A stretch of DNA of 64,000 nucleotides from an uncultured Roseburia sp. (GTDB lineage: Bacteria; Bacillota; Clostridia; Lachnospirales; Lachnospiraceae): assembly GCA_947642555.1 (NCBI GenBank), contig CANRSX010000015.1, forward strand, positions 1-64,000, written 5' to 3'. Below are positions 3,547 through 22,553 of this stretch, in pieces (positions within the stretch are counted from its first letter, which is position 1; every line of letters starts with the position of its first letter). The notes beneath the pieces are model-generated. The model saw only the letters and a list, made by a program, of their open reading frames with translations. It ran no database searches and was not told where the DNA came from. The position numbers and the translations under genes are program-made.

Positions 3547-4536
3547 TCAAAAACGGCTAAAAATCTGCGTACTGGTGGTGTGGGCTCCGTCTGTATCTTT
3601 GAGACGCACTTGAAGCAGCAGGGTATCCGCATCCAATACTGTGACGTAAAATTCTTCTTCTGCGTAATTCTGGTATATCGTCTCAGCGCTGAACAGCTGG
3701 AGGCGCCATGCCTCGTTCCCGCATCCCTCATAAATTGGGGCCTCCTGGTATTCCACCGCCATGGCCTGTGCCTCCCTGAGATAACCGGGATGCCACTCGT
3801 CATAATAGTCCACACCGTCCGGCTCAGTCTCGTCCCAAGAACTGTGAAAAGTCAATCTGCGGTCAATCTCCATTTCGCTGGCCGTGAAATTCCAGACCTC
3901 CGGATCCCCTTCTGTGACAGTCTCGCCGGAAACCATGCGCCATTGGCCGAGCAGGTCCGCCATGCAGTATTCCCCGCCCTTGGCCGGCATGGGATGCCGC
4001 TCCAGCCAGAACTGGTCGCCCAAGAAATCCAGCATCAATTCGCCATCCGCCATATGGCCTTGAGCAAAAACCGTGTCTTCGTTTGTCCCGTCAGCTTCCG
4101 TACTCAGAAAAAAGCCACCGCTGCCATCCGAATACCAGAAGCAGTCCGGGCCGATCCCGAGCAGAAGGTGGTACGCACCGATATAGTCAAAGCTCCGGGG
4201 CTTCCATTCCCGATACCGGGCGCCGCCGCCCTCCAACAGGTACAGCTCGATAACCCAATCATCCTCCGGCAAAGTCCCTTCCATCGTCTGGCCTTCCTTT
4301 GCCATTATGTACCGTACAGCCTGCCAGCAGGTATTCGTCCACGGATCTTCCGTATCTTCCGATTCCGAAGTGTTTTCGGGCAAGGCATCCGAATATGTGC
4401 TGCTCTCTTTATTGATAGGCGGCAGCGCGCTGGATGGGCTGTTCTCACCCATTTTTCTCCCATTTCTCCCACACGATGCCAGTACCAGCGGCAACAGCAG
4501 ACAAAGCAACGCTGCCGCAAATCTACTGCTTCTCAT
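3547..4536 (-). CDS. Lipoprotein of unknown function, paralogue A2
   Basis: A 329-residue lipoprotein. I chose the ATG at 4536 because GGAGG stands 6 bases upstream and a typical signal sequence follows at once (AAALLCLLLPLVLASC); an ATG at 4563 would add nine residues before it. After a Ser/Asn/Glu-rich linker comes TCWQAVRYIMAKEGQTMEG, a small beta domain, then DLLGQWRMVSGETV, EGCGNEAWRLQLF and DADTLLLQVRL. The last three match motifs in the neighbour at 2112-3035, pointing to tandem duplication. Outward-facing and membrane-anchored; role unknown. Confidence 0.8.
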   Translation of the reverse strand: MRSSRFAAALLCLLLPLVLASCGRNGRKMGENSPSSALPPINKESSTYSDALPENTSESEDTEDPWTNTCWQAVRYIMAKEGQTMEGTLPEDDWVIELYLLEGGGARYREWKPRSFDYIGAYHLLLGIGPDCFWYSDGSGGFFLSTEADGTNEDTVFAQGHMADGELMLDFLGDQFWLERHPMPAKGGEYCMADLLGQWRMVSGETVTEGDPEVWNFTASEMEIDRRLTFHSSWDETEPDGVDYYDEWHPGYLREAQAMAVEYQEAPIYEGCGNEAWRLQLFSAETIYQNYAEEEFYVTVLDADTLLLQVRLKDTDGAHTTSTQIFSRF

Positions 4537-4617
4537 ATCTATCCTCCACGTCTTTTCATCCACTCGTTATACATTTAAGTTGCAAATGTTTTCGTTCGCG
4601 CGTATAACATCGGGCGG

Positions 4618-6239: not shown

Positions 6240-7406
6240 TTATCCATAGGAGCGTATCAGCTCCATGGAACTCATGTCATCATCAAAGAAAGGCGGACGC
6301 ATTCCGTTGTCCCTGTCCTGCTGGATATGCAGGTAGTCCCCGGACGGGTCGATCAGGACAGGAAAGACGCCGCTGGCATCGCTGGGAAGGTTTCCTGCTC
6401 CCGTGGAGACAATCAGTTGCAGACAGTCATCCACCATCCGCCAGACGCCGGAATAGAGCAGTTGATATTCCTGCCCATCCTCGAACTGGCAATACAGTTC
6501 GGCAATGCCCGCATAGTCCGGATCACCGCCTCCGCCAAGCAGGTTCAGAGACCATCCATCGCACACCCAACAGGTATCCGCCAGTCCTTCCTCCGTGGGC
6601 GGCACCCACCAGTCATCCCCTGTCGTTTCCCAGCCGTCCGGATCGCCCCAATAATCCAGGCCTGTGACATCGCCAAAGATTGTGAAGTCCATGACCAGGG
6701 GGGCATAGTCCTCGCCTGTGGGAACGATCATAACACCTCCAACCTCCGTGTCCCATACCGGATACCATGTCACCAGACCTCCTGCGCCACCGCTGTCGCT
6801 GGCAATGATCTCTATATCCGGCTCATCGCGAAATTCCTCATAACCTACAAATACCAGCACCGGCTGGGCATACTCTTCCCGGTAGAGGACTTCATCCGAT
6901 TCGGGCCAGACTCCGTTGCCTGTGGATTTCCATGTGACATGATTCACTGAAAGGGTGGTCCTGTCGTCCCTCGGCACGATGCAGTAAAGGTCCCCATAGC
7001 CGGGACCCAGAATACGCACGGGCGGAATCGTCCAGATAAAAGGCATCTCCTCCATCAATCCGGGCGAGTTGTCCCACAGCCATTCTGTCAGAGGAGTGGT
7101 GTCATCCGCCCCCCTACAGCCAAGGTATGCTGCGGCTATGGCTGCCTGCGGTGCGTGTTCCGCCATAAATTCCCGCAGCCAGGCCAGTGCCTCTTGCTCC
7201 GTTCCCTCGTCTGGCGCGGCAGACATATCCTTATCCGGCTGTCTGCCGTCGGCCAGCACTCCTTTGCCGGTACTTCCATCGGCTGGTATGGACGCTGCAT
7301 CGCCGCTGCCGGCGCCGTCCTGTGGCTTACTGCCGCAGGCGGCGAGGCCAAACAGGAGCAGAAACGTCAGAAGGGCGGACGCGGTCCGCGTTATCATTCT
7401 CCTCAT
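6240..7406 (-). CDS. Lipoprotein of unknown function, paralogue B2
   Basis: A 388-residue lipoprotein (signal ending LLLFGLAAC) with AAGGAGG 9 bases before the ATG. Motifs shared with the 4618-6216 protein are YLGCRGADD, MPFIWTIPPVRI, LYCIVPRDDRTTLSVN, DEVLYREEYAQPVLVF and VMDFTIFGD. It lacks the extra C-terminal domain of that protein. The final ~130 residues (DTCWVCDGWSLNLLGGGGDP) look like a beta-sandwich reporting or binding module. Its gene follows the TPM-domain gene by 14 bases, so the two are probably co-transcribed. Confidence 0.8.
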   Translation of the reverse strand: MRRMITRTASALLTFLLLFGLAACGSKPQDGAGSGDAASIPADGSTGKGVLADGRQPDKDMSAAPDEGTEQEALAWLREFMAEHAPQAAIAAAYLGCRGADDTTPLTEWLWDNSPGLMEEMPFIWTIPPVRILGPGYGDLYCIVPRDDRTTLSVNHVTWKSTGNGVWPESDEVLYREEYAQPVLVFVGYEEFRDEPDIEIIASDSGGAGGLVTWYPVWDTEVGGVMIVPTGEDYAPLVMDFTIFGDVTGLDYWGDPDGWETTGDDWWVPPTEEGLADTCWVCDGWSLNLLGGGGDPDYAGIAELYCQFEDGQEYQLLYSGVWRMVDDCLQLIVSTGAGNLPSDASGVFPVLIDPSGDYLHIQQDRDNGMRPPFFDDDMSSMELIRSYG

Positions 7407-7420: not shown

Positions 7421-8752
7421 TTAGAATTTCCCGCTGCGGCCCGAACCGCCGCCACCGCTGCAGCTGCTGCTACTGCCGCCACTGCTGCTCGAACTCTTCT
7501 GTTCGATTTTGGTACGGGTTTTAGTGGTGTGCGTGTAGCGGTCGTAACTATCTGCCAGGCGCAGCCCGCCAGGGGCAATGTATTCGTTGGCCTGCGCGTT
7601 CTGCCGGACATTGTTCATCTTCCGTTTCAGCACCATGCAGACCGCCAGCGCCGCCAGACAGGACAAAAACGTCATCAATCCAATTCCCCACAAGGGGTTG
7701 GCCCGCACCGGATGCCCGGCATCCGCTTTGGCAAGATACTCATCGCAGGAGTCCAGGTAATGGGAAATGCCGCCATACCAGTCATCATTGCCAAAGTCGC
7801 CTAAAAAGCTCTCTTCCAGCTGTTCCTGTCCGTATTCGTTAAAGGCGTATCCGGCGCTTTTACCGTAGACAAACATGGCGTAATCACGTTCCGCCATGCT
7901 CAGAAGGATCATGATGCCATCCCGCCCATCGCCCATTCCGAAGCTGTTTTGTTCGGAGTGATAGATCTGTGTGGTCACATCATAGACATCCCCGGAGCCA
8001 AAATCCTCATAGTCATCCACAAGAACCACATAGACGCCGCAGCCGTGCCGCCGGGAGATGTCCCCGGCCCGCTGCTCCAGTTCCTCCCACTGGTCAAAGG
8101 GGAGCAGGTCGCTGATGTCAAAGATATAGTACATCGAGGTGCTGTCCGGTTCCTCCGCATCCTGACCGGACGGCCCTCCAGTCATTTCATAGCCGCTGTC
8201 TCCCGGCGCGAAAAAGTCCGCCACGAATTCCGCCATAGCGTCCACCGCCTGGGAAAGCGCCACGGCGCTCATATCCATATCGCCGGACCATGCCCCAGGC
8301 TCCATGCCGGATTCTACTGACAAATAAGGCTCCACTGCTTTGGTAAGATCGTAAAGCCAATCCCCATAAAGCAGATTTTCATCCGTACCGCCCAGATAGA
8401 CACACCAGTCATCCGCGGCCATTGTATAGCCGTCTCCGCAGGGCGTAAGCAGCAGGGTCAGCGTAATACCGGAGTGGTATTTTCCATAGCCATATTCATA
8501 CTCTTCGTAAATACCTTCCGCTGCGTCAAGCACGGTATCATAATCACTTTCCGTCAGAATATCTACCCGCAGGTCAACACCATATCGCTCTGTGAGCGCG
8601 GGAAGCGTGACCTCTCCTGCATACCGCAGCGGTTCCGACCCTAACTGCCCTGTCTCATCGTAGATCGCGCCGTAATCTTCCGCTGCCGCAGCCGGGATAC
8701 AGAAGGTCAGTGCCAGCAGCACCGACAGCACAAAACTCGCAAATTTCTTCAT
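7421..8752 (-). CDS. Membrane-anchored TPM-domain protein, YdjH-like
   Basis: A 443-residue protein with a Sec signal peptide (SFVLSVLLALTFCIPAAAA). Residues ~30-160 form a diverged TPM-like unit. Residues ~205-345 form a clearer TPM (TLP18.3/Psb32/MOLO-1) domain with GVYVVLVDDYEDFG, GRDGIMILLSMAERDYAMF and LDSCDEYLAK. A single transmembrane helix follows at ~355-378, then a cytoplasmic tail ending in Ser/Gly runs (GGSSSSCSGGGGSGRSGKF), a tail often seen on such proteins. Together with the zinc-ribbon protein upstream and the SPFH protein at 16464 it recalls Bacillus YdjG/YdjH/YdjI, which link PspA to the membrane. The role here is inferred from that resemblance. Confidence 0.8.
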   Translation of the reverse strand: MKKFASFVLSVLLALTFCIPAAAAEDYGAIYDETGQLGSEPLRYAGEVTLPALTERYGVDLRVDILTESDYDTVLDAAEGIYEEYEYGYGKYHSGITLTLLLTPCGDGYTMAADDWCVYLGGTDENLLYGDWLYDLTKAVEPYLSVESGMEPGAWSGDMDMSAVALSQAVDAMAEFVADFFAPGDSGYEMTGGPSGQDAEEPDSTSMYYIFDISDLLPFDQWEELEQRAGDISRRHGCGVYVVLVDDYEDFGSGDVYDVTTQIYHSEQNSFGMGDGRDGIMILLSMAERDYAMFVYGKSAGYAFNEYGQEQLEESFLGDFGNDDWYGGISHYLDSCDEYLAKADAGHPVRANPLWGIGLMTFLSCLAALAVCMVLKRKMNNVRQNAQANEYIAPGGLRLADSYDRYTHTTKTRTKIEQKSSSSSGGSSSSCSGGGGSGRSGKF

Positions 8753-8768
8753 ATCCGATCCCCCTTAT

Positions 8769-9881
8769 CTACAAAAGCGTGAACAAGACTGAGCTCAGCA
8801 CCGACAGCGGCACAGCGATGGCGGCGAACAGTGCCCAGAATCTGCCGCGGCTCACGGGCAGCTCACCCACCAGCCTGCCAGTCTGGCCGTTCATGGCAAA
8901 CAAAAAATCTTTGCCGTTCCACTTGGTATTAAGCATCCAGACCGGCATGAGCGCATAGTGGACTTTGCCACGCTTGAGGGAAGTACTGCCCCCCTTGGAC
9001 GTGCAGGTATTGTAGCCCTTCACGGTATCCCGCAATGCGGCGGCCAGAGTGTTCTCGCAGCGTTTGTCAGCCCGCTCCCGGCTCTGTTCTACCGTCACAT
9101 CAAACTTGTCAGCGAGAAAACCGGGCAGATATGCCGTGGAAAAGGGTTTCAGTTCTGTATAGTCATAGGGTTCAATGGAATCCATGTAGTCGTCCGGCAT
9201 CTTGCTGGACGCATCCACCGGGACCTTTTCAAACGCGACGGAACCAGAACGGAAAACGTCATAATGTTCTGTCTCGGTGACCTCATAATCGCCGGATCGG
9301 TAGGTACGGGATCGTGTGGCTGCATACCGGGCATCGCCCTCCGCCTCGCCGTCAAACATCCAGAAAGGGACGTAAACCCCCTTAATCTCCTGGATGTGGT
9401 TCCCGGCGGTAAAGGATTTTGGCAGAAAAACCTTGCCCTTATAGTGCTTTTTAAGGGCCGCGACCGCATCCTCCTTGCTCAGCTTGAATGGAAGCACAAA
9501 ATCGGGCCGCAACATATCGCCGAACTGCCCCGGCATTACGGTGGGGTTCCCGCAATAAGGACAGGATGTGGCGGCGGTACTTTCATCACAGATCAGCTCC
9601 GCTCCGCAGGAAGGGCAGTTATAGGCTTTCATCCCTGCGGCATCCGCTCCCCAGTCACCGCTCAGGCCAGAGGTGTCCCAGCCGTCATCTTCCGCACCTT
9701 GGACCTGAGCTTCCTCATGGGCTTTCACGGCCTGTTCTTCTTTCTGCTGATACAGCGCCTCAATCTCAGAGACCTCGTAGGCGCTCCCGCAGTAATCGCA
9801 CTCCAGTTTCCCAGAGTCCCCGGCAAAGTGCAGCGGGCCTGTGCAGGCCGGACACTGGTAATTTGTTACTTGTGAAGGCAT
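8769..9881 (-). CDS. TFIIB-type zinc-ribbon membrane protein, YdjG-like
   Basis: A 370-residue protein with two zinc ribbons near the start: CPACTGPLHF...CDYCGSAYEV at ~10-37 and CPSCGAELIC...CPYCGNPTVM at ~89-115. The middle has the family hallmark PFKLSKEDAVAALKKH, VFLPKSF, then IKGVYVPFWMFD. A C-terminal transmembrane helix (LFAAIAVPLSVLSSVLF) anchors it, leaving the ribbons cytosolic. Databases often mislabel this family as primosomal protein N'. Length and order match Bacillus YdjG (about 340 residues). The next gene downstream, 16 bases away, encodes the TPM protein, as in ydjGH. Confidence 0.8.
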   Translation of the reverse strand: MPSQVTNYQCPACTGPLHFAGDSGKLECDYCGSAYEVSEIEALYQQKEEQAVKAHEEAQVQGAEDDGWDTSGLSGDWGADAAGMKAYNCPSCGAELICDESTAATSCPYCGNPTVMPGQFGDMLRPDFVLPFKLSKEDAVAALKKHYKGKVFLPKSFTAGNHIQEIKGVYVPFWMFDGEAEGDARYAATRSRTYRSGDYEVTETEHYDVFRSGSVAFEKVPVDASSKMPDDYMDSIEPYDYTELKPFSTAYLPGFLADKFDVTVEQSRERADKRCENTLAAALRDTVKGYNTCTSKGGSTSLKRGKVHYALMPVWMLNTKWNGKDFLFAMNGQTGRLVGELPVSRGRFWALFAAIAVPLSVLSSVLFTLL

Positions 9882-9913
9882 CTTTTATCTCTCCTCCTAC
9901 TGGTTTATCTTCT

Positions 9914-10444
9914 TCAGATCAGCTTGGATCCGCAGTATTGGCAGGACGAAGCCCATCCGGGCCGTATGACATTCTCTCCGCCGCAATGGGGGCAGGTAAC
10001 CGTTTCGTACTGCTCTTTCTGGGCAGCTTTGTTAAAGGCTGTCAGCATGATACGCTTGTTATGCGTATCAAGACTGATGTTTTCTAAGTATCCTTTTTGG
10101 ATCATATGACGTACCTTACGTTCCACGTTCTTTCCGCCAATAGCTCCGGAGAGCTGGTCAAAGGATACCTCCGGCTCAGGGCTGGCGAAGAAGCACTCCG
10201 CCAGCCGATGGGCAAGCCGGCTGGCGCTCTGTCGGCGGACCGGGCCAAGCGTACCCTTCCAGATACACAGGACACCCATTGAAAGCATGAATAGCTCCGC
10301 AAGCACACTGCCCAGGTCAAACTCCAGATCCACCTCGAAAACCGATCCCGCAATGATCACGCCCAAAAGTGCGAATGCCGCCATACGGATCAGTTCCCCC
10401 GTCCTGTAGCCCAGCCGAACTTTTTCAGTCAGGTAAAGCTCCAT
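9914..10444 (-). CDS. Two-TM membrane protein with C-terminal zinc ribbon
   Basis: A 176-residue protein. The ATG at 10444 is preceded by AGGAGG at 6 bases. Two transmembrane helices lie at about 18-40 and 47-63 (FALLGVIIAGSVFEVDLEF, LAELFMLSMGVLCIW). A soluble part follows that reads like a winged-helix unit (SFDQLSGAIGGKNVERKVRH, GYLENISLDTHNKRIML). It ends in one zinc ribbon, CPHCGGENVIRPGWASSCQY then CGSKLI. It lies 33 bases upstream of the YdjG-like gene and probably belongs to the same complex. I do not know a named family. Confidence 0.75.
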   Translation of the reverse strand: MELYLTEKVRLGYRTGELIRMAAFALLGVIIAGSVFEVDLEFDLGSVLAELFMLSMGVLCIWKGTLGPVRRQSASRLAHRLAECFFASPEPEVSFDQLSGAIGGKNVERKVRHMIQKGYLENISLDTHNKRIMLTAFNKAAQKEQYETVTCPHCGGENVIRPGWASSCQYCGSKLI

Positions 10445-10468
10445 ATCAAACCTCCTCAATCAAACTGT

Positions 10469-11434
10469 TCACGACAGGACCCGTAAAAACGAGTCCCGGA
10501 TGGTGTCTTTTGGATACCGACCCAGCAGACACTCCTTTTCTTTCCGGATCATCCCGCCAGCCATCTCCGCATGGCCGCCGCCATCTCCATAACCGTGGAG
10601 CGCATCACGGACTAAATGCCCCGCATGGACAGCCGGATCCTCCGAGCGGACAGAAAACTTGATCCCATCCTCCCGTTTGGAGAATACCACGGCGACCTCC
10701 ACCTCCTGCAGCGCCAGGATGAAATCGGAGAGGATCGCGATCAAAGCATCCGGGCAGGGAAAGGGGACATTGGATATGCCTACCTTGTCGTAGACCTCAA
10801 TGCTCTCGATGGCCGCGCCATATGCTTTCAGATCGTTGAACTCCATGTTGTTGCGCTCCAGCCGCGCCAGCGTTTCCTGGTCACACAGAGGGAACAGGAA
10901 TGCGAACATTTCAATATCCAGTTCCGTCACGCCCCGCGTAAACTGCAGCGTGTCCATTTTCAGGCCATAGAGCAGGGCAGTCGCCGTGTGCCTGTCCGGC
11001 AGGCACGGAAGCTGTTTATAATACTGGGCGATGATCGTGGCGCAGGCCCCCGTGGGGCGGATGTCCTGGTAGCGGTATTCAATTGGCACAAAAGTGGGGT
11101 GGTGGTCGATGCAGGCCACCTCATCCCCAACAAAATCCGTGATATTCCCGCTGTGCTTCTGCGCGTCCACACAGATCACATAGTCTTCCTCGGTCATGTC
11201 CGGACGCAGCTGCTCATAGGGGAACATCTGGATCTGGAACGCCTCCAGCATCTTGGACGCGCTCAACTTGTCGATCCTGCCATCGTAGCAGAGGGTAGAG
11301 GTGATCTCATGCTGGGCCAGAAGGCGCTGTAAGCCGAAGGCGGAGGCAATGGCGTCCGGGTCCGGGAAATTATGGGTCTGTATGTAGATATGCTTGCCGT
11401 GGCATAACGCCGCAAGCTGGTTAAAGTCGTTCAT
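10469..11434 (-). CDS. DHH/DHHA1 family phosphoesterase (NrnA-like)
   Basis: A 321-residue cytosolic enzyme. DHH motifs in order are THNFPDPDAIAS (metal site), VICVDAQKHSGN, CIDHHPTF (the DHH motif proper) and the C-terminal DHHA1 signature GDGGGHAEMAGG. Members such as NrnA hydrolyse nano-RNAs, 3'-phosphoadenosine phosphate or linear/cyclic dinucleotides. Which substrate applies cannot be read from sequence. The ATG at 11434 was chosen over a GTG at 11446, which would sit on top of the AGGAG. Its place inside a lipoprotein and zinc-ribbon block is unexpected; a nucleotide-signal turnover role there is speculative. Confidence 0.85.
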   Translation of the reverse strand: MNDFNQLAALCHGKHIYIQTHNFPDPDAIASAFGLQRLLAQHEITSTLCYDGRIDKLSASKMLEAFQIQMFPYEQLRPDMTEEDYVICVDAQKHSGNITDFVGDEVACIDHHPTFVPIEYRYQDIRPTGACATIIAQYYKQLPCLPDRHTATALLYGLKMDTLQFTRGVTELDIEMFAFLFPLCDQETLARLERNNMEFNDLKAYGAAIESIEVYDKVGISNVPFPCPDALIAILSDFILALQEVEVAVVFSKREDGIKFSVRSEDPAVHAGHLVRDALHGYGDGGGHAEMAGGMIRKEKECLLGRYPKDTIRDSFLRVLS

Positions 11435-11517
11435 TTTCGTATCCACTCCTATCTATTCAACGGTTGCCGCCGGCCTGTCAGCCCTGACCGTTTTTCCTTT
11501 CGTGCGGCAGTGTCAGC

Positions 11518-12399
11518 TTATCTTTGATAGATTCCCACTCCCGCAAGACGATAGAACGCATCGATCAGTTCATTACCAGCATCGATCGGGGCATATATAG
11601 AGCTGCCGTCCGCGAACTCAAATGACGTCTGGTATGAGGTTTCATCAAGGGCGAATATGTCATTGTCCGGCGGCTCTTCATACTCTTTCACTCTTGTAAC
11701 GAGCTGCTGCTCCTTTACGATGCGGAGTATCTCCTCCGCATCGCTCTCTCCAATCCGCTGGTTTTCCACTTCCGTGTGAGCGCCACTGCGGTTGAGTGCA
11801 GCATCAAATGAAAAGAACCAATCATCTCCTTCTTTTTCGATGGTAAACGAATAGGAAGAGGAATGATCCATACAGCTGCTGTGGACGGAAACAGCCCTGA
11901 TCTCAATTTTCTCAGCTGCCTCATAGTGCCTGTCGGCAAGCGCATAGAGATAATCGAGCGTCTTATCACCGAACGCGGTTTCTTTGTCTATACTGCTTCC
12001 ATCAGTGAATGTCATTCCAGAGATGCGCATCGGCGCATCGGATATGTGAAAAAAACGTATCGGCTCACGGTATTTTCTGAGCCGTTCTATTTCGCCTTCC
12101 TCACGAATGATCTCAAGGAATCCTTCTGCATCTTCAGGCGGGATCTGGACGGAACTGAACGATGTGTAATGTTCCTTCCGGCTTCCCACATAGCAGCTTG
12201 CAGAAAAGAGCCAGTTCTCGTCTTCCTTTCGCAGCGCAAAAGAATACACGGGGTATCTTTCCATGCCAGAATAAGAGGTATAGAACGAAACAATCTCATC
12301 GGCAGTATATTTTTTGCTTCCGCTACATCCGAAAAGTCCGGAGAACATCGAGAGGGCTGACACGATAATCATCACTTTACATACATTTTTCTTTTTCAT
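11518..12399 (-). CDS. Lipoprotein of unknown function
   Basis: A 293-residue protein with signal VMIIVSALSMFSGLFGC and AGGGGTGA before the ATG. Two similar halves are visible: YPVYSFALRKEDENWLFSAS in the first and SSSYSFTIEKEGDDWFFSFD in the second. Each is followed by a segment ending in a FADGSS/FTDGSS turn (GMTFTDGSSID, SFEFADGSSIY). The protein is therefore an internal duplication of a ~125-residue domain. Nothing indicates an enzyme. It follows the two-ribbon lipoprotein gene by 17 bases. Confidence 0.8.
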   Translation of the reverse strand: MKKKNVCKVMIIVSALSMFSGLFGCSGSKKYTADEIVSFYTSYSGMERYPVYSFALRKEDENWLFSASCYVGSRKEHYTSFSSVQIPPEDAEGFLEIIREEGEIERLRKYREPIRFFHISDAPMRISGMTFTDGSSIDKETAFGDKTLDYLYALADRHYEAAEKIEIRAVSVHSSCMDHSSSYSFTIEKEGDDWFFSFDAALNRSGAHTEVENQRIGESDAEEILRIVKEQQLVTRVKEYEEPPDNDIFALDETSYQTSFEFADGSSIYAPIDAGNELIDAFYRLAGVGIYQR

Positions 12400-12416
12400 A
12401 ATTCACCCCTGAGAGA

Positions 12417-12698
12417 TTAAAACGATCTGCCACACTCGGTGCAGAACTTTCCCTTGCTCTCCGCTCCGCAGGAGCAGGTCCAGCTAAAATTATCCGGAGG
12501 TTTGGAGAGCCCGCACTCCGTACAGTATTTTCCGGCATTCGTAGCACCGCAGAAACACGTCCAGCTTTCACGAGCGGATTTCGGATATTGATACACGACC
12601 TGATCGCTGTTCTGCCCACAAGCAGCAAGCCCCAGCATACCCATCAGAATACTTATTGTGGCAAAAACCGGTTTTAATTTCACGGTAGTGCAGGACAC
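12417..12698 (-). CDS. Small lipoprotein carrying two zinc ribbons
   Basis: A 93-residue protein with a lipoprotein signal (ISILMGMLGLAAC, Cys about 27) and then only two zinc ribbons: WTCFCGATNAGKYCTECG and WTCSCGAESKGKFCTECG. The same module is repeated at the end of the SPFH protein at 16464. At the DNA level bases 12433-12485 match 16600-16655 at roughly 48 of 55 positions. Zinc ribbons on the outside of the membrane are unusual. Alternatively the signal is a plain membrane anchor. The start is uncertain: GTG at 12698 or 12683, neither with a good ribosome binding site. Confidence 0.7.
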   Translation of the reverse strand: MSCTTVKLKPVFATISILMGMLGLAACGQNSDQVVYQYPKSARESWTCFCGATNAGKYCTECGLSKPPDNFSWTCSCGAESKGKFCTECGRSF

Positions 12699-12724
12699 AT
12701 ACCGCCGTCCGCCGAAGACCCGCG

Positions 12725-14605
12725 CTACTGGAACTTCATGTTGGTGAGAATGATGTCTGGCATCGTTCCCTGGACGCAGTCCATATTCCGCAGGCCGATG
12801 GAAAGGGCGCGGGTGTCATCAATCTGCGCGATATACTCGATCCATTCGTAGCCGATGTACTTATAGGTGCGGCCTTTGAAGGTGATGCCGCCGATCACGC
12901 GATCGTCGATGTCCTGATAGTTTTCAAAGTCGTCCTTGTAGTAGTCGAAGTCCTCCACATTGGTTCTTACCTCGAATCTGATGGCGCCTGCGCCGAAGGC
13001 TGTGGGATCGTCGTTTTCCACCAGGCAGCGCCCCCTATCATCGAACGACCAGCCGGATACCGGGATCTTCGTCATGATCTTGACCTTCACATCGTCGTGC
13101 GCAAACTGGGCAACCTCCACGGAGAAGTCCTTCATTTCGGCGTTTGCAGACGCTGCCTTGTTTGCCTCCGCGGCTTCTGCTTTGACGGTGTCAAGATACT
13201 TCGCAATGGCCTCCTTGCCGGAGAAGCCGCTGGTGTTGTACGCACTCACCGTATAAACGCCCGACTCGTTCTCCTTGAAATTGACGTAGATGAAATGGGA
13301 GTCATCGTCCTTGGATATCCATTTGTAGTAGCGGTAGTTTGCCTTCATGTGGTCGCTGTACTCTTCCTTGACGAACTGACCTTCCACGCCGAAGTAGGCA
13401 ACGATATCATCGTAAGTAGCGTCAAAAATATTATTATTGACCTCGTTCATCCAGACGTAGCCCTTCTGCACCTGCTCCTCAGTTACGATGCCGTCTCCGC
13501 CGGAAGCCGCCGCATCTGGCGGAGTGAGCGGGGCGCTGTCATGCGGATCGAAGTCGTTCGACGGATCTTCTCCGATGGCGTCCGGCATGGACTTACCCGC
13601 GTCAATCAGCGGCAGATACCAGTCGGTATAGCAGTAGGGATAGTCGCTCTCGTCCATGTCCTCCCAGTACAGGCCCCACGGGCGCAGATAGATGTCGTAG
13701 TGGAACTCGTCATCACCGTCTTCATAGTCGCCGCTGATCCAGATCATTTCGTCATAGTCCAAAAGGCCGGGATCGACGATCCAGTCTGCATGCTCCAGGG
13801 CCACGTTTGTGAACCAGCCGCCCTCGGACATCACCGTGCCGTGCTCACCGGTTCCGGCTTCGCTCAGACTGACCTGTGCGGAGGCCATGGGATCGGATCT
13901 TGTGTAGTCCTCGTCCCAAAGCGTGATTGTGCCAGTGTAGTCCGTACCGATGTCAATATCGCCGCAGACATCCCACCAGTTTCCTTCCATGCTCTCATAG
14001 TAGCCATAACAGCCGCTCATCTTCCACCAGCCGTACCAGTCGCCATTCCACCAGTCGAGCAGCGCGTCTCCGGTCCCGGCAGACTGCGCCGTACCGCTCC
14101 CAGCTGATTCCCGGCTGAGTGTGGAGGGATCGACAGTGATTTTACCGTTTTTGTCGCCGAACGCCTCCTCAAAGGTCACTTCGACCTTGCTGGTCGTATC
14201 CGCCAGCACAAAGGCTGTGCGGATCTCAAGGGTCGCACCTGGCGCGACATCCGTAAATTGATCTTCGATCACCGTAGCATCATAGGAGTCCGGATTGGAA
14301 TAGACGATGGCAACCGCCAGCTCCGCACCGTTCTGCATGGCTGTTTCGGAGATCGACCAAAGATAGGAATGACTGTCCTCGCCGTTGTTCGTAAAATCCA
14401 ACGTCAGAACGACCGCGTCGTTTCCATCCGAATCCTCCATGATGCACGCGCCCTTATAGAGCAGCTCATAATCGCCGAGCTTGAGCAAATTGGAGTCTGC
14501 CAGTTCCTTATCTGTCGATTCCTTATTTTTACCGCAGGCGGTGAGACTGAGCAGCATCAGCGCCGCAAGAAGCAGGTACAAAAGTTTTGTCTTCGTTTTT
14601 TTCAT
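12725..14605 (-). CDS. Large lipoprotein with N-terminal DUF5067-like domain
   Basis: A 626-residue lipoprotein. The ATG at 14605 has GGAGGG 6 bases upstream; lipobox LSLTAC. Residues ~38-150 resemble DUF5067 (YELLYKGACIMEDSDGNDAV, TLDFTNNGEDSHSY, VAPGATLEIRTAFVL), an immunoglobulin-like extracellular domain of Firmicute lipoproteins. Residues ~165-340 are very rich in Trp, Asp and Tyr (WWNGDWYGWWKMSGCYGYYE), recalling carbohydrate-facing surfaces. A third region after ~370 (EVNNNIFDATYDDIVAYFG) and a final PsbP-like part complete it. The overall arrangement is not one I know. Confidence 0.75.
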   Translation of the reverse strand: MKKTKTKLLYLLLAALMLLSLTACGKNKESTDKELADSNLLKLGDYELLYKGACIMEDSDGNDAVVLTLDFTNNGEDSHSYLWSISETAMQNGAELAVAIVYSNPDSYDATVIEDQFTDVAPGATLEIRTAFVLADTTSKVEVTFEEAFGDKNGKITVDPSTLSRESAGSGTAQSAGTGDALLDWWNGDWYGWWKMSGCYGYYESMEGNWWDVCGDIDIGTDYTGTITLWDEDYTRSDPMASAQVSLSEAGTGEHGTVMSEGGWFTNVALEHADWIVDPGLLDYDEMIWISGDYEDGDDEFHYDIYLRPWGLYWEDMDESDYPYCYTDWYLPLIDAGKSMPDAIGEDPSNDFDPHDSAPLTPPDAAASGGDGIVTEEQVQKGYVWMNEVNNNIFDATYDDIVAYFGVEGQFVKEEYSDHMKANYRYYKWISKDDDSHFIYVNFKENESGVYTVSAYNTSGFSGKEAIAKYLDTVKAEAAEANKAASANAEMKDFSVEVAQFAHDDVKVKIMTKIPVSGWSFDDRGRCLVENDDPTAFGAGAIRFEVRTNVEDFDYYKDDFENYQDIDDRVIGGITFKGRTYKYIGYEWIEYIAQIDDTRALSIGLRNMDCVQGTMPDIILTNMKFQ

Positions 14606-14638
14606 AGTTCCCTCCAAAATTTACGGAACACAAAGCAG

Positions 14639-14980
14639 CTATTTTTTTGTGAAGGTTCCGCTGATACCGTAACCGGAATTTTCGTTCATGGTGAGGCTGC
14701 TGCCATCCACAGAGAACGTGTAGGTAGACGGATCGCTCCAGCTTTCCAGCGTTACCGTAAGCTGGTCTCCGTCAATGGTATAAGTGCCATCCTGCTTCAT
14801 GTACGCATTCTCCATGGTGCATTTGCCTTTCCCATCGAACGTCCATGTGATAACGCCGTCATCGCCCAGGTCGGCCGACCATGTGCCGGAGAGGGCGTCC
14901 TTGCTGCCTCCACAGGCGGCCAAACTCAGAACCATCGTGAGCGCCAAAAGAAGCGCCAAAGTCTTGCTTAATTTTTTCAT
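14639..14980 (-). CDS. Small lipoprotein, DUF5640-like beta domain
   Basis: A 113-residue lipoprotein with lipobox LSLAAC. Three ATGs stand in a row; the third (14980) is best spaced, 7 bases from AAAGGAG. The mature part is one small repetitive beta domain (SGTWSADLGDDGVITWTFDG, QDGTYTIDGDQLTV, SFSVDGSSLTM-like turns) of the type seen in DUF5640 and similar lipocalin-like lipoproteins. Its gene is followed 33 bases later by the DUF5067 lipoprotein. No active site is visible. Confidence 0.75.
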   Translation of the reverse strand: MKKLSKTLALLLALTMVLSLAACGGSKDALSGTWSADLGDDGVITWTFDGKGKCTMENAYMKQDGTYTIDGDQLTVTLESWSDPSTYTFSVDGSSLTMNENSGYGISGTFTKK

Positions 14981-15010
14981 CATCATGCTCCTTTGTTTTG
15001 TGTATATGTT

Positions 15011-15910
15011 CTATCCATTGACAGCGCCGCCGCAAAATTCACAGCAGCCGCTGGCATTTGGTGTGGTGGTGGCTCCACAGAACGGACAGGTCAGCGCCGT
15101 CTTAGGAGCCGTAGCTGCGGCCGCTTCATTCCTTACCTGCTCCCGAACCTGGAGCAATGCATCCCGGATCTCGCATCCCATCTCCTCATACTGCCGGTAC
15201 TCCATACTGGAACGGACCTCATCCGCATTGGATGTCCGGGAACCGCCCATGAAGGGCCGTGCGCCAGGGCGGGAGCCTCCAGGCATACCAGGGCGGATTG
15301 GCCCCGCGCCTCCGGTGCGGAGGCCGCCGCCCCTGACACAGGGCTGTGCATCCGGCCCGTCCAAAAGGGTTTCCTCATCATTGTCAACAGAAGAACCGTT
15401 CAGCTTGAAGCGGATTTCATTAAAGTATGGGTTGTTGACATTGATCACAATGTAGAAATCATAGGAAAAGGCGTAGCGTCTGGGGGAAAAGCTCTGCCGT
15501 TTCCCCTCTGCATCCTTATACTGGATTTCTGTCTTGCTCTCGTCAATGTCCAGCTTACAGCCAGTCACATCGGAGAAGGACAGTACATCCGGGTTGGCCT
15601 CCTGCCAGTTCCGGGCGGATGTGACCATGAATCTCCCATCATCCTCGTCCAGCAGGACTTTCATGCCCTCGCCTAATGTGCGGGTCACCCGGAACGCCGC
15701 CACTTTCTCCTGGTTGGCTTCCCGGTAAGCCAGCTGCTCTTTGATTTCCTCCACGGTGCTCTGCCTCCGGTCACTGAACCAGGGGGAGAGCTTTGCCGCG
15801 CAGTTCTTACAGCAGTTCCCATCCTCCAGCTTCCGGTTGCCCAACAGCCCGATCTCGCCGCCGCAGATGGCGCATTCCTTTTTCTCAAACAGTTTTCCGA
15901 ACAGTGCCAT
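15011..15910 (-). CDS. DUF4428-domain protein with C-terminal zinc ribbon
   Basis: A 299-residue cytosolic protein. Residues ~12-45 are a DUF4428 zinc finger (CAICGGEIGLLGNRKLEDGN then CCKNC). Residues ~75-180 form a PH/GRAM-like beta domain (MKVLLDEDDGRFMVTSA, SYDFYIVINVNNPYFNEIRF). A Gly/Pro/Arg-rich linker (RPGMPGGSRPGARPFMGGSR) and a coiled helix follow. The end is a zinc ribbon (CPFCGATTTPNASGCCEFCG). DUF4428 proteins often sit beside SPFH proteins in Firmicutes, as here. Role unknown, probably part of the same envelope complex. Confidence 0.8.
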   Translation of the reverse strand: MALFGKLFEKKECAICGGEIGLLGNRKLEDGNCCKNCAAKLSPWFSDRRQSTVEEIKEQLAYREANQEKVAAFRVTRTLGEGMKVLLDEDDGRFMVTSARNWQEANPDVLSFSDVTGCKLDIDESKTEIQYKDAEGKRQSFSPRRYAFSYDFYIVINVNNPYFNEIRFKLNGSSVDNDEETLLDGPDAQPCVRGGGLRTGGAGPIRPGMPGGSRPGARPFMGGSRTSNADEVRSSMEYRQYEEMGCEIRDALLQVREQVRNEAAAATAPKTALTCPFCGATTTPNASGCCEFCGGAVNG

Positions 15911-15956
15911 AATAATCTACCTCCTCGGTGTACGCCACCTCTTTCCTTTATGGTGT

Positions 15957-16364
15957 TTACTCCAGGGGGCCATTCTTCGTCTGGATGGCGCCATAGATAT
16001 ACAGGCCGGGCACAAGCAAATTCAGGATCAGGCTGGTAAAGCTGAACTCTCCCCCTGCGACAAGACCGATGATCATAGAGATGATGCTCAAAACGGCAAT
16101 GATGATGCCCCACTTGATGCAGGCTGCCGCTTTCTGCGGCGCATTGCAGGCACCGATGCCCTTAATGCCCGCGATAAACTGAATGACAGATGCCAGCGTT
16201 ACAATAATGGAACTGGCATAGAGCAGGCCGGTACCTTCTCCAGTCTCCATAAGCGCCGCCAGGGCGCTGATGCCGAGAATGGCGATGATGCCCGCGATGA
16301 CACCGATGACGCCGCCGATAATCATGAGAATGGAAGTGACCTTCAAAAATTTTTGACCTTTCAT
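15957..16364 (-). CDS. Four-helix membrane protein
   Basis: A 135-residue hydrophobic protein with four predicted transmembrane helices (about 8-32, 47-67, 82-104, 109-127) and tiny loops. AGGAGG lies 9 bases before the ATG. The pattern GIKGIGACNAPQKAAACIKW between helices 2 and 3 is conserved in small clostridial membrane proteins of unknown function. It lies between the SPFH and DUF4428 genes and may provide the membrane contact for those proteins. Confidence 0.75.
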   Translation of the reverse strand: MKGQKFLKVTSILMIIGGVIGVIAGIIAILGISALAALMETGEGTGLLYASSIIVTLASVIQFIAGIKGIGACNAPQKAAACIKWGIIIAVLSIISMIIGLVAGGEFSFTSLILNLLVPGLYIYGAIQTKNGPLE

Positions 16365-16463
16365 GTGTATAATCCTCCTGTTTTATGTTTTGTTGATCGT
16401 TTTAGGTGTTATGTCTGTTCGTCCAGCAATCGTAGGGTCAGACTACGGCTTTTCGGCCTCGTT

Positions 16464-17879
16464 TCATCCCTGGATGTCTCCGTCATCAAAGGGATCTCCG
16501 CACTCCGGGCAGAACTTGGGCGGATGGGCGGGGTCGTCCGGCTCCCAGCCGCACTTGTCGCACTTGTACTGCGGTACGCCGGCAGGCTTAGGCTTGCCGC
16601 ACTCGGCACAGAACTTTCCTTTGTTCACCGCTCCGCAGGAGCAGGTCCAGCCGTTTGTATCCGCAGGCTTGGGTTTCCCGCACTCCGGGCAGAATTTTCC
16701 GGTGGCTGTGGCCCCGCAGGAGCAGGTCCAGCTATCCCCTGCGGGTTTAGGGACGGGCTTGGGTGCGCCGCATCCCGCACAGAACTTGCCGGTATTTCCG
16801 GTCTGCCCGCAGGAACACGCCCATCCCTCCATGGCAGGAGCCGCCGGAGCGGGTTGCTGTACCGATTGCTGCTGACCCATCTGGAAGAGGCTTTGGGCGT
16901 TCATGCCGCCGGCCTGACCGGCCATCCCCATGCCCATGAAAGCCATAGCGGGACCGGCATTGGGGTTGGCGGCTGCCGCCTGCATGGCGCCGGCCTGTGC
17001 GCCGACAAGATGCGCCGCCGCGCGGGTGGGGTCCATAAAGGCCGTATTGCGCTGCAGCTCCTTGATCATCTTTTCGTCTTCCTCGTTGGCCTTGACGCTG
17101 GAAACGCCGAAGGATACGATCTCAAGACCCCGAAGATCCCGCCACTTTGCGGACAGTTCCTGGTTCAAAGCATCTGCCAGCTCTGTGGTGTGGCCTGGAA
17201 GGGCAGAGTATCGAATGCCCATATCGCTGATCTTTGCGAAGGCGGGCTGCAGCGCGGTCAGCAACTCGGTTTTCAGCTGGCCGTCAATGGTTCCGCGGTC
17301 AAAATCCGCTTCCACATTGCCGCAGACATTGGTATAGAACAGCAGGGGATTTGCCACCCGGTAGGAATACTCCCCGAAACAGCGGATAGCAATGTCGATG
17401 TCGATCCCTGCCCGCTGGTCCACCACCCGGAAAGGAACCGGGGAGGGTGTACCGTACTTGTTGCCTATGATCTCCTTGGTGTTGAAGTAATACACCCTCT
17501 GATCCTTGGGGGCCTCGCCGCCAAAGGTAAAACGCTTGCCAATATTCTGGAACACCTGCCCGATACTCTCCCCCAGGTCGCCCGAAAAGATGCTGGGTTC
17601 CGTGGAGGCGTCGAAGGTAAATTCGCCGGGTTCGGCGCATACCTCCACCACCTTGCCCTGCTCCACGATCATCATGCACTGGCCGTCGGCCACGGCGATC
17701 ACGGAGCCGCTGGTGATAATGTTGTCGCTGCCTTTGGTGTTGCTGGAGCGCCCGGAGGCCCGTTTCCGCCCCTTGACCGCCAGCACGGTAGCGGGGATCG
17801 CCTCACAGTAGAAATACTCCTTCCACTGATCGGCCATCACGCCGCCTGCAGAGCCTAATGCCGCTTTAATAAGTCCCAT
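16464..17879 (-). CDS. SPFH-domain protein with four C-terminal zinc ribbons, YdjI-like
   Basis: A 471-residue protein. Residues 1-35 (GLIKAALGSAGGVMADQWKE) and the following ~240 residues form the SPFH (stomatin/prohibitin/flotillin) fold of the YdjI or virion-core-like group: SVIAVADGQCMMIVEQGKVV, YYFNTKEIIGNKYG, PVPFRVVDQRAGIDIDIAIR. A Met/Gly/Ala-rich linker (~285-355) leads to three WxCSCG...GKFCxxCG ribbons and a fourth, CDKCGWEPDD...CPECG. Bacillus YdjI recruits PspA to the membrane together with YdjG and YdjH, and relatives of both are encoded here. Four tandem ribbons suggest a scaffold that binds other ribbon proteins (inference). Confidence 0.88.
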   Translation of the reverse strand: MGLIKAALGSAGGVMADQWKEYFYCEAIPATVLAVKGRKRASGRSSNTKGSDNIITSGSVIAVADGQCMMIVEQGKVVEVCAEPGEFTFDASTEPSIFSGDLGESIGQVFQNIGKRFTFGGEAPKDQRVYYFNTKEIIGNKYGTPSPVPFRVVDQRAGIDIDIAIRCFGEYSYRVANPLLFYTNVCGNVEADFDRGTIDGQLKTELLTALQPAFAKISDMGIRYSALPGHTTELADALNQELSAKWRDLRGLEIVSFGVSSVKANEEDEKMIKELQRNTAFMDPTRAAAHLVGAQAGAMQAAAANPNAGPAMAFMGMGMAGQAGGMNAQSLFQMGQQQSVQQPAPAAPAMEGWACSCGQTGNTGKFCAGCGAPKPVPKPAGDSWTCSCGATATGKFCPECGKPKPADTNGWTCSCGAVNKGKFCAECGKPKPAGVPQYKCDKCGWEPDDPAHPPKFCPECGDPFDDGDIQG

Positions 17880-17922
17880 AGTTACATCCTTCCTTTCGTG
17901 ATTTATTTCTCTTTACTGACGA

Positions 17923-18222
17923 TTAAAATCCTTCATTTCTTTCTTTGCGCTTTGTTGTGAGCATTGTCCCACAATTGGGGCAAAAGATCGCGTTGTCCGA
18001 AAGCACAGTTTCGCATACTGGACAGCAGTGGTGTAAATTAAGGTAGAACTGGTAAAGAGTTTCCTGGGGAAGTCCACTGCCGCATTCTCCACAAGTTTGC
18101 TGCTCCGCAGAGACGGTTGCGCCGCAATTAGCGCAGACTTTAAGCTGCTTCATAGCTTCTGGCCCAAATCCATATTGCTTCATGCTTTCCAGACGGATCT
18201 GCTCAATTTGCTGCCGTGTCAT
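17923..18222 (-). CDS. Small double zinc-ribbon protein
   Basis: A 99-residue protein: a helical start (MTRQQIEQIRLESMKQYGFG), then CANCGATVSAEQQTCGECG and CPVCETVLSDNAIFCPNCG, and a basic tail TTKRKERNEGF. I place the start at 18222: the upstream gene ends with TAA one base before this ATG and supplies GGAGGAGAAGG, so translation is coupled. Longer upstream frames are out-of-frame readings of that gene. Probably a cytosolic partner of the SPFH complex, whose gene starts 43 bases downstream. Confidence 0.75.
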   Translation of the reverse strand: MTRQQIEQIRLESMKQYGFGPEAMKQLKVCANCGATVSAEQQTCGECGSGLPQETLYQFYLNLHHCCPVCETVLSDNAIFCPNCGTMLTTKRKERNEGF

Positions 18223-18223
18223 C

Positions 18224-18589
18224 TTATAATCCTTCTCCTCCATATTGAAGCCGTTTGCCGCAGCGTGGACAAAATATTTCTGCGGAGGTGATCTCTTTGC
18301 CGCAGTGGGAGCAGTAACGAGGCGGATCTTCCCACGGCGCACATTCCACACATTCCGCCACATCAGCGTTATACATGGCATTTGATACCCATTTTCCGCA
18401 CTTGTGGCATCGGTTAAAATATTTCCGTGCGTCTTCCCATGCGGTCTCCAATTCCTGCTCCTGTGTCTCTGCTTGGATAGGATCGGTCGTATGCAACAAA
18501 GCACCTGTGATGTCACAAAAGAAGCTGTACCGATTTCCTCCCGAGTCAGCGATCACCTTGTAGCGTGCTGTTTTATGGGTAAACGCCAT
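18224..18589 (-). CDS. Zinc-ribbon protein, first gene of the minus-strand block
   Basis: A 121-residue protein starting MAFTHKTARYKVIADSGGNR, with AAAGGAGG 6 bases before the ATG at 18589. The N-terminal half (YSFFCDITGALLHTTDPI, then ELETAWEDARKYFNRC) is a small domain that appears to include a Cys-rich knuckle (CHKCGKW...CVEC). The end is a classic ribbon (YCSHCGKEITSAEIFCPRCG). The stop overlaps the ribosome binding site of the next gene, confirming an operon. The 5' position suggests the promoter of the block lies in 18590-18960, but I could not fix it. Confidence 0.75.
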   Translation of the reverse strand: MAFTHKTARYKVIADSGGNRYSFFCDITGALLHTTDPIQAETQEQELETAWEDARKYFNRCHKCGKWVSNAMYNADVAECVECAPWEDPPRYCSHCGKEITSAEIFCPRCGKRLQYGGEGL

Positions 18590-18877: not shown

Positions 18878-18963
18878 TCAAGGCTAAGACTGGAAATGCT
18901 GTAAATGAGATACCAAGGAAGATACGGTGATGAGAGTTGTATTTCGCGGGGAGGTGTCCACGC

Positions 18964-20598
18964 ATGACTAAGCAGAATCAAAGAACGGGAGTCCTGGTAG
19001 CTGTGCTGATCGTCTGTGCTATCTCTGCCCGCGTTTTGGGAAAGTTTGATGTTTTTCCCGTACCGCTGGGTTTGGTCCGCACGATCCTTTATATCAGTCT
19101 GTACATTGGCTGGGGTCTCTCTGTCAGCCATCGCATTTTACAAACACAGGTGCGCCGCTATATGGTCGGCGTTTCATGTCTGACCGTCTTCTGGTTTGTT
19201 ATACGGTCAATAAAATATTTTTTTGTGGTCGCTCCTGATGCGATCCGGCATCTATGGTACTGGTACTATTGTCCTATGCTGTTCATACCTCTGCTTTCCG
19301 TGTTTGTTTCCATGTCGCTGGGTAAGCCGGAAAGCTACCATCTGCCGAAATGGACAAGACTGCTCTATCTTCCCACCCTGTTCTTTCTGCTGCTGGTACT
19401 GACAAACGATCTCCATCAGCTTGTTTTCTCCTTCCCGGCCGGAACGGTTTGGAGCGATACGGATAACGGATACGAGTACGGATATTATTTTGTTATCGGG
19501 TGGGAGATCATCTGTGCGCTGGCCGCCTTTGTGATCATGCTTATCAAATGCCGTTTGGCGCAAAGGAGAAAATACTTACCGGCGCTTCTGCTGTCCTTCT
19601 CAATTCTATATGCCTTTATCTACGCCAGCGGAGCCAGGTGGATGCAAGTGATAGGCGGAGATATTACAGCGGTGCAGTGCCTGATGTTTACCGCCATACT
19701 GGAAAGCTGTATCCAGTGCGGATTGATCCAGACCAATACTGGCTATGACGAGCTGTTTAAAGCCGGAACCTTCGGTGCCCAGATTGCCGATAACGACCAT
19801 AAGGTCCGCTACGCCTCCGCAAATTCACCTATACTTTCTGAACGAATCATGTGTGCGGCAAAGGAGGGCGCAGTTAATCTTGATAAACATACCCTGCTAA
19901 AAAGTTACCCGATTGAAGGCGGTGATGTGTATTGGCAGGAAGATATAACAGATATTACTGCCCTGCTTGAAAAATTGGAAGAAAACAAGGAGACCATTGC
20001 AGAAAGCACCCATCTGGAACAGGAAAATTATCGTATCAAGCTGGAGATCCACACCTTGCGGGAAAAGAATCGGCTCTATGACCTTTTACAGGAAGAAACC
20101 GCTCATCAGATCGATTTATTGAATGATCTGTTTTATCTATATGACGAAGAAGAAAATCCGGAAAAGCGCCGCAGTCTGCTTGCGAAGATTACTGTAATCG
20201 GCGCTTACATAAAACGCAGAGGCAACCTGATCTTTATCCGTGAAAAAACGGAAACCATCGATACCACAGAACTGGCCCTTTGCATGGAGGAATCCTTTTC
20301 AAATTTGAAACTGATGGGGGTCGAATGTGAAGCAGACATTCCGAAGGGCAGCAAAATCTTTACCCAGGACGCAATCCTGTTCTACGACTTTTTTGAGAAG
20401 GTGATGGAGACCGCTATAGATGATATGAGCTTTGTTTGGTTGAAAGCGCGTATTCTTGCAGATTCGATCATCCTCCGTCTGGAGGTGGAATGCGAAAGCT
20501 CCCTTGCAGATTTTCGGGATACCTGTGAAAGCTGCTCCTTTGAGGATGGCGTATGGCGCTTTATCCTCCGCATCGGAAAGGCGGGTGGACAAACGTGA
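18964..20598 (+). CDS. 7TM sensor protein, histidine-kinase-like without a functional ATPase domain
   Basis: A 544-residue protein. The ATG at 18964 has GGGGAGGTG 8 bases upstream. Seven transmembrane helices occupy ~10-225, like the histidine-kinase N-terminal 7TM sensor module (VLIVCAISARVLG ... ALLLSFSILYAFIYASG). A short PAS-like segment (IADNDHKVRYASANSPILSE) and a coiled coil (~325-390, LEENKETIAESTHLEQENYR) follow. The end resembles a dimerisation/ATPase pair, but no N, G1 or G2 boxes can be seen. It overlaps the next kinase gene by 4 bases. Likely a sensing subunit that acts through that kinase. Confidence 0.75.
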   Translation: MTKQNQRTGVLVAVLIVCAISARVLGKFDVFPVPLGLVRTILYISLYIGWGLSVSHRILQTQVRRYMVGVSCLTVFWFVIRSIKYFFVVAPDAIRHLWYWYYCPMLFIPLLSVFVSMSLGKPESYHLPKWTRLLYLPTLFFLLLVLTNDLHQLVFSFPAGTVWSDTDNGYEYGYYFVIGWEIICALAAFVIMLIKCRLAQRRKYLPALLLSFSILYAFIYASGARWMQVIGGDITAVQCLMFTAILESCIQCGLIQTNTGYDELFKAGTFGAQIADNDHKVRYASANSPILSERIMCAAKEGAVNLDKHTLLKSYPIEGGDVYWQEDITDITALLEKLEENKETIAESTHLEQENYRIKLEIHTLREKNRLYDLLQEETAHQIDLLNDLFYLYDEEENPEKRRSLLAKITVIGAYIKRRGNLIFIREKTETIDTTELALCMEESFSNLKLMGVECEADIPKGSKIFTQDAILFYDFFEKVMETAIDDMSFVWLKARILADSIILRLEVECESSLADFRDTCESCSFEDGVWRFILRIGKAGGQT

Positions 20599-22537: not shown

Positions 22538-22553
22538 CAGAGCAGACAGCTTT

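Follow-up and report, generated by a model that had tools for sequence, protein, structure and literature searches.

A recurring PspA-free relative of the YdjG/YdjH/YdjI membrane system in an uncultured Roseburia species

The gene block at 7421..18589 of the window, a 64,000-nucleotide stretch (positions 1 to 64,000, forward strand) of contig CANRSX010000015.1 from an uncultured Roseburia sp. (assembly GCA_947642555.1), is a genuine and recurring PspA-free relative of the YdjG/YdjH/YdjI system of Bacillus subtilis. With moderate confidence, we read it as a PspA-independent membrane scaffold of the YdjG/YdjH/YdjI type, in which an SPFH protein would be held at the membrane, a terminal zinc ribbon on that protein would act as a docking tag, and the whole would serve the upkeep of the cell envelope. 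The Bacillus trio has been described as what brings PspA to the membrane. In the genomes examined here, the trio is often present where PspA is not detected, and the scaffold is thereby set apart from the client for which it is best known. The terminal ribbon, which the SPFH protein shares with proteins of two other families, is the most novel part of the locus and is directly testable.

In B. subtilis, both YdjG and YdjH are required to localise YdjI and PspA in membrane foci, YdjH interacts with YdjI and with PspA in two-hybrid tests, and foci of YdjI, which lacks a membrane segment, form even without PspA (PMC8581546). Upon alkali shock, ydjG and ydjH mutants show a strong shape defect, unlike ydjI or pspA mutants, and the membrane becomes more rigid when YdjI is lost (PMC8581546). 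The counterparts of these proteins in the window, and the ribbon discussed below, are encoded as follows.

16467..17879, minus strand: SPFH (Band_7_1) protein with a C-terminal zinc-ribbon array (PF13421, 2.2e-17; CxxC pairs; tree)
16467..16568, minus strand: terminal zinc ribbon of the SPFH protein, 33-34 residues (alignment; 51-genome search)
8772..9878, minus strand: YdjG-like protein with two ribbons, a beta-rich domain with long hairpins and a C-terminal transmembrane anchor (identity to YdjG; predicted local distance difference test score of the model 90.7)
7424..8752, minus strand: TPM protein, YdjH-like, with a signal sequence, the TPM domain, one transmembrane helix and a Ser/Gly-rich tail ending GKF (PF04536, 7.6e-17; hydropathy)

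The SPFH and TPM proteins exceed their Pfam cut-offs (63.8 bits against 24 for PF13421 and 61.9 against 22.1 for PF04536). By hydropathy, the SPFH protein has no transmembrane helix and that of the TPM protein spans residues 357-375. Two sets of ribbon cysteines and a single C-terminal helix are seen in the YdjG-like protein (9878-8772), in which Pfam finds only ribbon families, with PF03966 over its cut-off and the TFIIB family and others below theirs. An earlier reading of the sequence, made without database searches (the sequence-only reading), had called this protein TFIIB-type; direct comparison identifies a YdjG homologue.

That comparison was made with loci that do carry PspA, namely PspA-YdjG-TPM-SPFH operons in four genomes (L120, L123, L181 and L182), PspA-SPFH pairs (L111 and L114) and PspA-YdjG-SPFH sets (L183 and L184). 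The profiles were built only from named-genome loci of the window type, leaving out the PspA-linked locus L042. On the four complete operons, the YdjG profile scored 371-384 bits, the TPM profile 135-143 bits (E 4e-41 to 2e-43) and the SPFH profile 39-45 bits. The window YdjG shares 34-36% identity with the four operonic YdjG proteins over nearly its full length (E 1e-75 to 9e-84), whereas the window SPFH is only 21-24% identical to its four counterparts. The SPFH profile matched seven of the eight PspA-bearing loci (E 3e-7 to 1e-13), the SPFH protein of L111 being reached only by direct BLAST. Judged by these identities and bit scores, conservation is highest in YdjG and divergence greatest in SPFH. 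In sequence terms, then, YdjG is a close homologue, TPM a clear homologue and SPFH a distant sister subfamily of the proteins in the PspA-bearing operons. The core identity as YdjG/YdjH/YdjI homologues is thereby well supported, the likeness to B. subtilis pspA-ydjGHI (PMC8581546) being judged through the four operons and not from the B. subtilis sequences themselves. Two further likenesses are a soluble SPFH protein with C-terminal ribbons and a TPM tail ending in Phe. The flotillins FloA and FloT resemble the window protein as SPFH-domain membrane scaffolds; however, they bind the membrane by a hydrophobic segment of their own (PMC8581546), whereas the window SPFH has none by hydropathy and carries ribbons instead.

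The distance of the SPFH protein is also seen in a tree of 143 rows, computed by a quick method whose tool warns of long branches. In this tree the window protein is represented by that of L031, the nearest named contig, which belongs to the same species and encodes an SPFH protein 99% identical over the full length. Eight rows, the PspA-linked SPFH proteins, group in one clade with support 100, and the window type together with a second type typical of the genus forms a clade of 117 rows, also with support 100, in which L042 is the one PspA-linked row. Three rows of the PspA-linked clade (L162, L167 and L168) bear no PspA label because their loci are short, and they sit at the same places as L182, L183 and L184. 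Thus, the window SPFH is homologous to, but lies outside, the PspA-linked (YdjI) clade. The equivalence of the trio to YdjG, YdjH and YdjI, as originally proposed, holds in that all three are homologous to proteins of the PspA-bearing operons; it does not extend to the subfamily of the SPFH protein. The gene order differs as well, as loci of the window type usually run SPFH-YdjG-TPM and B. subtilis has PspA-YdjG-YdjH-YdjI.

The absence of PspA, noted earlier for the locus, extends to the genome as a whole: PF04012 had no match in the entire assembly (4.99 Mb, 96.1% complete; other ESCRT-III profiles were not run), and PspA is therefore absent from the locus, too. The same search found matches in nine of 14 control genomes. 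PspA scored over the cut-off in 14 of 95 relatives and in six of the 80 genomes that encode the window SPFH type (5/50 and 1/30), against 71 of 299 genomes in a phylum sample. Co-occurrence of PspA and window-type SPFH in one genome is therefore possible but uncommon.

The three core genes keep company far beyond this genome. We examined 80 named-genome loci, the best 80 of 593 SPFH-encoding stretches, and counted genes by profile searches over all open reading frames, as simple longest-frame calling missed 17 of 100 SPFH anchors; TPM matches below 100 bits were dropped beforehand. YdjG was present in 57 loci, TPM in 45, both in 44, DUF4428 in 16, DUF6935 in 13 and PspA in one. The order on one strand was SPFH>YdjG>TPM in 39 loci and YdjG>TPM>SPFH in five, and all 58 loci with YdjG or TPM carry them on the same strand as SPFH. 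Among the 45 loci flanked on either side by 5 kb or more, YdjG occurs in 34, TPM in 28 and both in 27. Because all three genes are found together in 44 of the 80 loci, their grouping exceeds chance, and SPFH-YdjG-TPM is a conserved core. Going by title, most hosts are Bacillota bins, with gut or rumen as the source of many, and Spirochaetota are included (five Treponema and one other Spirochaetaceae). For the core, the proteins thus do not fall into unrelated subfamilies, and the neighbours are conserved in other genomes. The C-terminal residue of the TPM protein is Phe in 61 of 69 TPM matches, including all six in loci with PspA; L193, one of the eight exceptions, ends in GW. This tail links the PspA-linked and PspA-free TPM proteins and, given the topology suggested by hydropathy, possibly marks a cytosolic ligand.

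The terminal ribbon of the SPFH protein has the consensus YKCDKCGWEP...PPKFCPECGDPFDD.D. The pattern was found in 119 of 120 SPFH homologues among the matches listed (8000 matches in all) and in 87 of 112 high-scoring SPFH rows of the loci, and in none of the eight PspA-linked SPFH rows. The DUF4428 proteins of L066 and L108 end in the same type of ribbon, as does the PspA of L042 (Candidatus Faecousia), whose gene directly follows the SPFH gene. According to the part of Ravi et al. considered here, more than 98% of PspA homologues differ little in domain architecture (PMC11237479). A profile of 12 ribbons searched over 51 whole genomes gave 66 matches, 62 of them at E<=1e-15, and 58 of these 62 are SPFH proteins as called by length rather than by checking each sequence (57 frames of 416-522 amino acids and one of 230 amino acids, L222, which is cut by the contig start). 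The four weaker matches include the DUF4428 protein of L065. A ribbon common to SPFH proteins, some DUF4428 proteins and one PspA lineage suggests a concrete, testable way in which clients might be selected, and further clients could be sought with it by sequence. The larger complex built on zinc ribbons that the sequence-only reading had imagined may draw indirect support from the same distribution.

In the scaffold that we favour, the soluble SPFH protein would oligomerise at the inner leaflet and be held there by YdjG, through its tail anchor and cytosolic ribbons, and by the TPM protein, with its extracytoplasmic domain and its cytosolic, Phe-terminated tail. Docking would rest on the terminal ribbon as tag and on the TPM tail or the YdjG ribbons as socket, and other ribbon-ended proteins (some DUF4428 proteins and the Candidatus Faecousia PspA) could use the same socket. 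The lipoproteins of the locus would act on the outer face, a divergent kinase and response-regulator set would probably control expression, and the function would be to maintain membrane and envelope integrity under stress. Carried over by homology from B. subtilis, the window trio would make up a complete tether-plus-scaffold unit without PspA. Band 7 genes adjoin pspA in several phyla in the portion of Popp et al. consulted (PMC9239133), and the sections of Ravi et al. consulted suggest that band-7 and TPM proteins act with PspA in a chaperone-like manner (PMC11237479). The PspA-free variants of the phage shock protein system in those sections (PspC/Toastrack, of the Lia/VraT type) resemble the window locus in having envelope-stress partners without PspA, often with a two-component system; however, they are based on PspC/Toastrack and not on SPFH-YdjG-TPM (PMC11237479).

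We tentatively extend this scheme to a single membrane socket, formed by YdjG and the TPM tail, that would take any ribbon-ended protein, be it SPFH, the possibly PH-like DUF4428 or the PspA of one lineage, these being interchangeable or recruited together. On this view, an older or parallel SPFH-YdjG-TPM machine might carry PspA as an optional passenger and not exist for its sake.

Several observations weigh against the scaffold reading and its docking tag. A weak PspA match below the cut-off occurs in another genome of the 80, and many of the genomes are metagenome bins, which makes single absences of PspA uncertain. Neither YdjG nor TPM is carried by ten of the 45 loci that have flanks of 5 kb or more on each side. 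The terminal-ribbon pattern is lacking in 25 of the 112 high-scoring SPFH rows, and in the genome under study the ribbon profile matches only the window SPFH and neither of the other two SPFH proteins, so a core can exist without the ribbon; the DUF4428 protein of the window itself ends in a different ribbon. By a strict pattern, the ribbon is present on 69 of 120 homologues of the L042 PspA among the matches listed (205 in all); these are mostly near-identical and from few lineages, their next relatives lack this ribbon, and the genomic position of a ribbon-bearing PspA is visible in one genome only (L042). The strong ribbon matches other than SPFH were two DUF4428 proteins, one PspA and one in a 115-amino-acid frame beside an SPFH gene; as the two DUF4428 proteins and the PspA were themselves rows of the profile and recovered by construction, only the lack of further high-scoring carriers in the 51 genomes is an independent result. 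A docking role for the ribbon is suggested by its distribution.

The core is embedded in a longer series of genes. The same-strand block was first taken as 7421..18589, where the ribbon-bearing membrane protein, the TPM protein and the SPFH protein all lie on the minus strand and match their families, mixed as described with DUF4428, four-helix, two-helix, DHH, two small ribbon proteins and lipobox proteins. The extent proved too short: from 18589 the block continues to about 2112, adding two paralogous pairs of lipobox proteins and a DUF6935 protein, and comprises 18 consecutive genes, 13 of them inside 7421..18589. A divergent plus-strand regulatory set at 18937-26159 belongs to the locus picture as well. 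The further genes are listed below.

18227..18589, minus strand: zrA, small double-zinc-ribbon protein, 121 amino acids (PF12773, 1.2e-7)
17926..18222, minus strand: zrB, small double-zinc-ribbon protein, 99 amino acids (PF13240, 7e-13; PF12773, 8.9e-12)
15960..16364, minus strand: TM4, four-helix membrane protein (hydropathy)
15014..15910, minus strand: DUF4428 protein with an N-terminal ribbon, a possibly PH-like middle and a C-terminal ribbon (PF14471, 5.7e-17; AlphaFold model; structural neighbours)
14642..14986, minus strand: DUF5640 lipoprotein (PF18692, 1.5e-26; lipobox)
12728..14605, minus strand: DUF5067 lipoprotein, 626 amino acids (PF16729, 1.2e-25; lipobox)
12420..12698, minus strand: ZRlip, lipobox protein with two ribbons of the SPFH GKFC type (47-66% identity to SPFH ribbons; lipobox)
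11521..12399, minus strand: lipo293, lipoprotein-like, 293 amino acids (N-terminal hydrophobic segment; lipobox pattern unmatched)
10472..11446, minus strand: DHH/DHHA1 phosphoesterase (PF01368, 3.5e-11; PF02272, 3.8e-10)
9917..10459, minus strand: TMzr, two-helix membrane protein with a C-terminal ribbon (hydropathy; CxxC pairs)
6243..7406, minus strand: lip388 lipoprotein (lipobox; paralogue of lip532)
4621..6216, minus strand: lip532 lipoprotein (lipobox; paralogue of lip388)
3550..4563, minus strand: lipoprotein, 338 amino acids (lipobox; paralogue of 2115..3035)
3043..3528, minus strand: DUF6935 protein (PF22043, 8.2e-54)
2115..3035, minus strand: lipoprotein, 307 amino acids (lipobox; paralogue of 3550..4563)
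18937..20598, plus strand: seven-transmembrane histidine-kinase-like protein, divergent from the block (PF16927, 1.1e-6; linkage)
20553..21887, plus strand: HATPase_c sensor protein (PF02518, 3.7e-4, below the family cut-off)
21827..22537, plus strand: LuxR-type response regulator (PF00072, 2.1e-15; PF00196, 5.3e-15)
23112..24461, plus strand: solute-binding protein (PF13416, 3.4e-16; recurs with regulators)
24480..26159, plus strand: LuxR-type regulator, 559 amino acids (PF00196, 2.7e-14)

Compared with B. subtilis pspA-ydjGHI, the window thus adds DUF4428, DUF6935, lipoprotein and kinase genes. Direct comparison found the rarer genes of the block in few of the 80 loci: zrA, zrB and TM4 each in three, DUF5640 and DUF5067 each in four and ZRlip in two, all of these counts taking in L031, and lip388 in three and lip532 in four. 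The pair zrA and zrB also occurs together in L065 and L084, and TM4 in L032, L065 and L224. The fullest partial copies outside the window species are L041 (SPFH, DUF4428, DUF5640, DUF5067, YdjG, TPM, lip388 and DUF6935) and L065 (zrA, zrB, SPFH, DUF4428, YdjG, TPM, DUF6935 and TM4). The 18-gene order as such was found in no other species examined, and the exact set is not conserved; the neighbourhood survey therefore bears out the core and not the full order. What recurs beyond the core are DUF4428, DUF6935, the divergent kinase and regulator trio and some of the lipoproteins.

The linkage of two of these genes was counted in genomes chosen for encoding the window SPFH type, and so holds within such genomes only. 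In 43 genomes (our own and 42 of the 80), DUF4428 had 28 matches, of which 21 were strong (E<=1e-15); the seven weaker than 1e-15 were left out of the count. Seventeen of the 21 lie beside SPFH or YdjG (14 in the fetched SPFH loci and three more), two others beside other families of the window locus and the last two beside none. The kinase at 18937..20598 had 17 matches in 12 of 50 genomes, and ten of the 17 lie within about 10 kb of SPFH, YdjG/TPM or DUF4428, where by our own estimate chance would give well under one in genomes of about 2 Mb. This count takes G430:C19 and G408:C207, whose surroundings were not fetched, as unlinked, and includes a partial match (G396:C50) and a weak one (G440:C52).

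A less probable reading, to which we nevertheless give some weight, is that a general membrane unit, the SPFH-YdjG-TPM core, is accompanied by lipoproteins, the DHH protein and the ribbon proteins as hitch-hikers on a horizontally acquired island, which share no machine with it. DHH, TMzr and lipo293 occur in just one of the 80 loci, the same-species contig L031, and the genome has a second SPFH-YdjG-TPM locus (L131, contig C29), whose SPFH is 36% identical to that of the window, which carries YdjG-TPM twice and whose gene neighbourhood is common to genus mates. SPFH matches occur in 49 of the 59 genus mates. The best identities there are 28-43%, G002 being the exception with 71% over a stretch of 215 residues at the end of a contig. 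Because of these low identities in the genus mates, the window locus was probably acquired. Near the contig start, at 1397-891 on the minus strand, there is a fragment of a large serine recombinase, its C-terminal part (DUF4368). On the other hand, DUF4428, DUF6935, DUF5640, DUF5067, TM4 and zrA/zrB recur elsewhere with the core or with each other, and the DUF4428 linkage counted above speaks against this reading, too. In L132, a related SPFH locus, what we take from its sequence to be a recombinase-like gene lies about 2 kb from the SPFH gene. The third PF13421 protein of the genome (L185, contig C4) adjoins apparent response-regulator, kinase and ABC-transporter genes.

That the system uses PspA in trans, encoded elsewhere as PspA or another ESCRT-III protein and perhaps diverged beyond detection, seems improbable to us. 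Such supply in trans has been suggested for other abbreviated band-7 operons in the part of Ravi et al. considered here (PMC11237479), and G318, a genome of the same family, combines a window-type locus (L187) with PspA on another contig. However, this contrasts with the PF04012 results, in which our own genome had no match and 74 of the 80 genomes none over the cut-off, PF04012 being the one ESCRT-III profile run. Least credible of all is an antiphage or conflict island, with a membrane-surface sensor and DUF4428 as recruitment domain: the window-type SPFH is patchy within the genus, and PH or DUF4428 domains are N-terminal in some SNIPE nuclease homologues without a predicted membrane helix (PMC13190303, in the part considered), but 17 proteins compared with PADLOC-DB 2.0.0 gave weak matches only (the best, 4.7e-4, being to the LuxR-type end of 24480-26159) and no nuclease was seen in the block.

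A few minor observations may be added. In L031, ZRlip is longer (199 amino acids), and ribbons are odd on ZRlip, a lipobox protein that is expected to be extracytoplasmic. In L038 (8371-10142), the SPFH gene is followed by a short frame with one GKFC ribbon and the terminal ribbon; this frame looks like a fragment or a partly duplicated copy. The window encodes a CotH-kinase family protein downstream of the regulatory set (26185-28095, minus strand), and at 31051-34344 on the same strand a single frame of 1098 amino acids matches both MFS transporter and glycosyl hydrolase family 2 domains.

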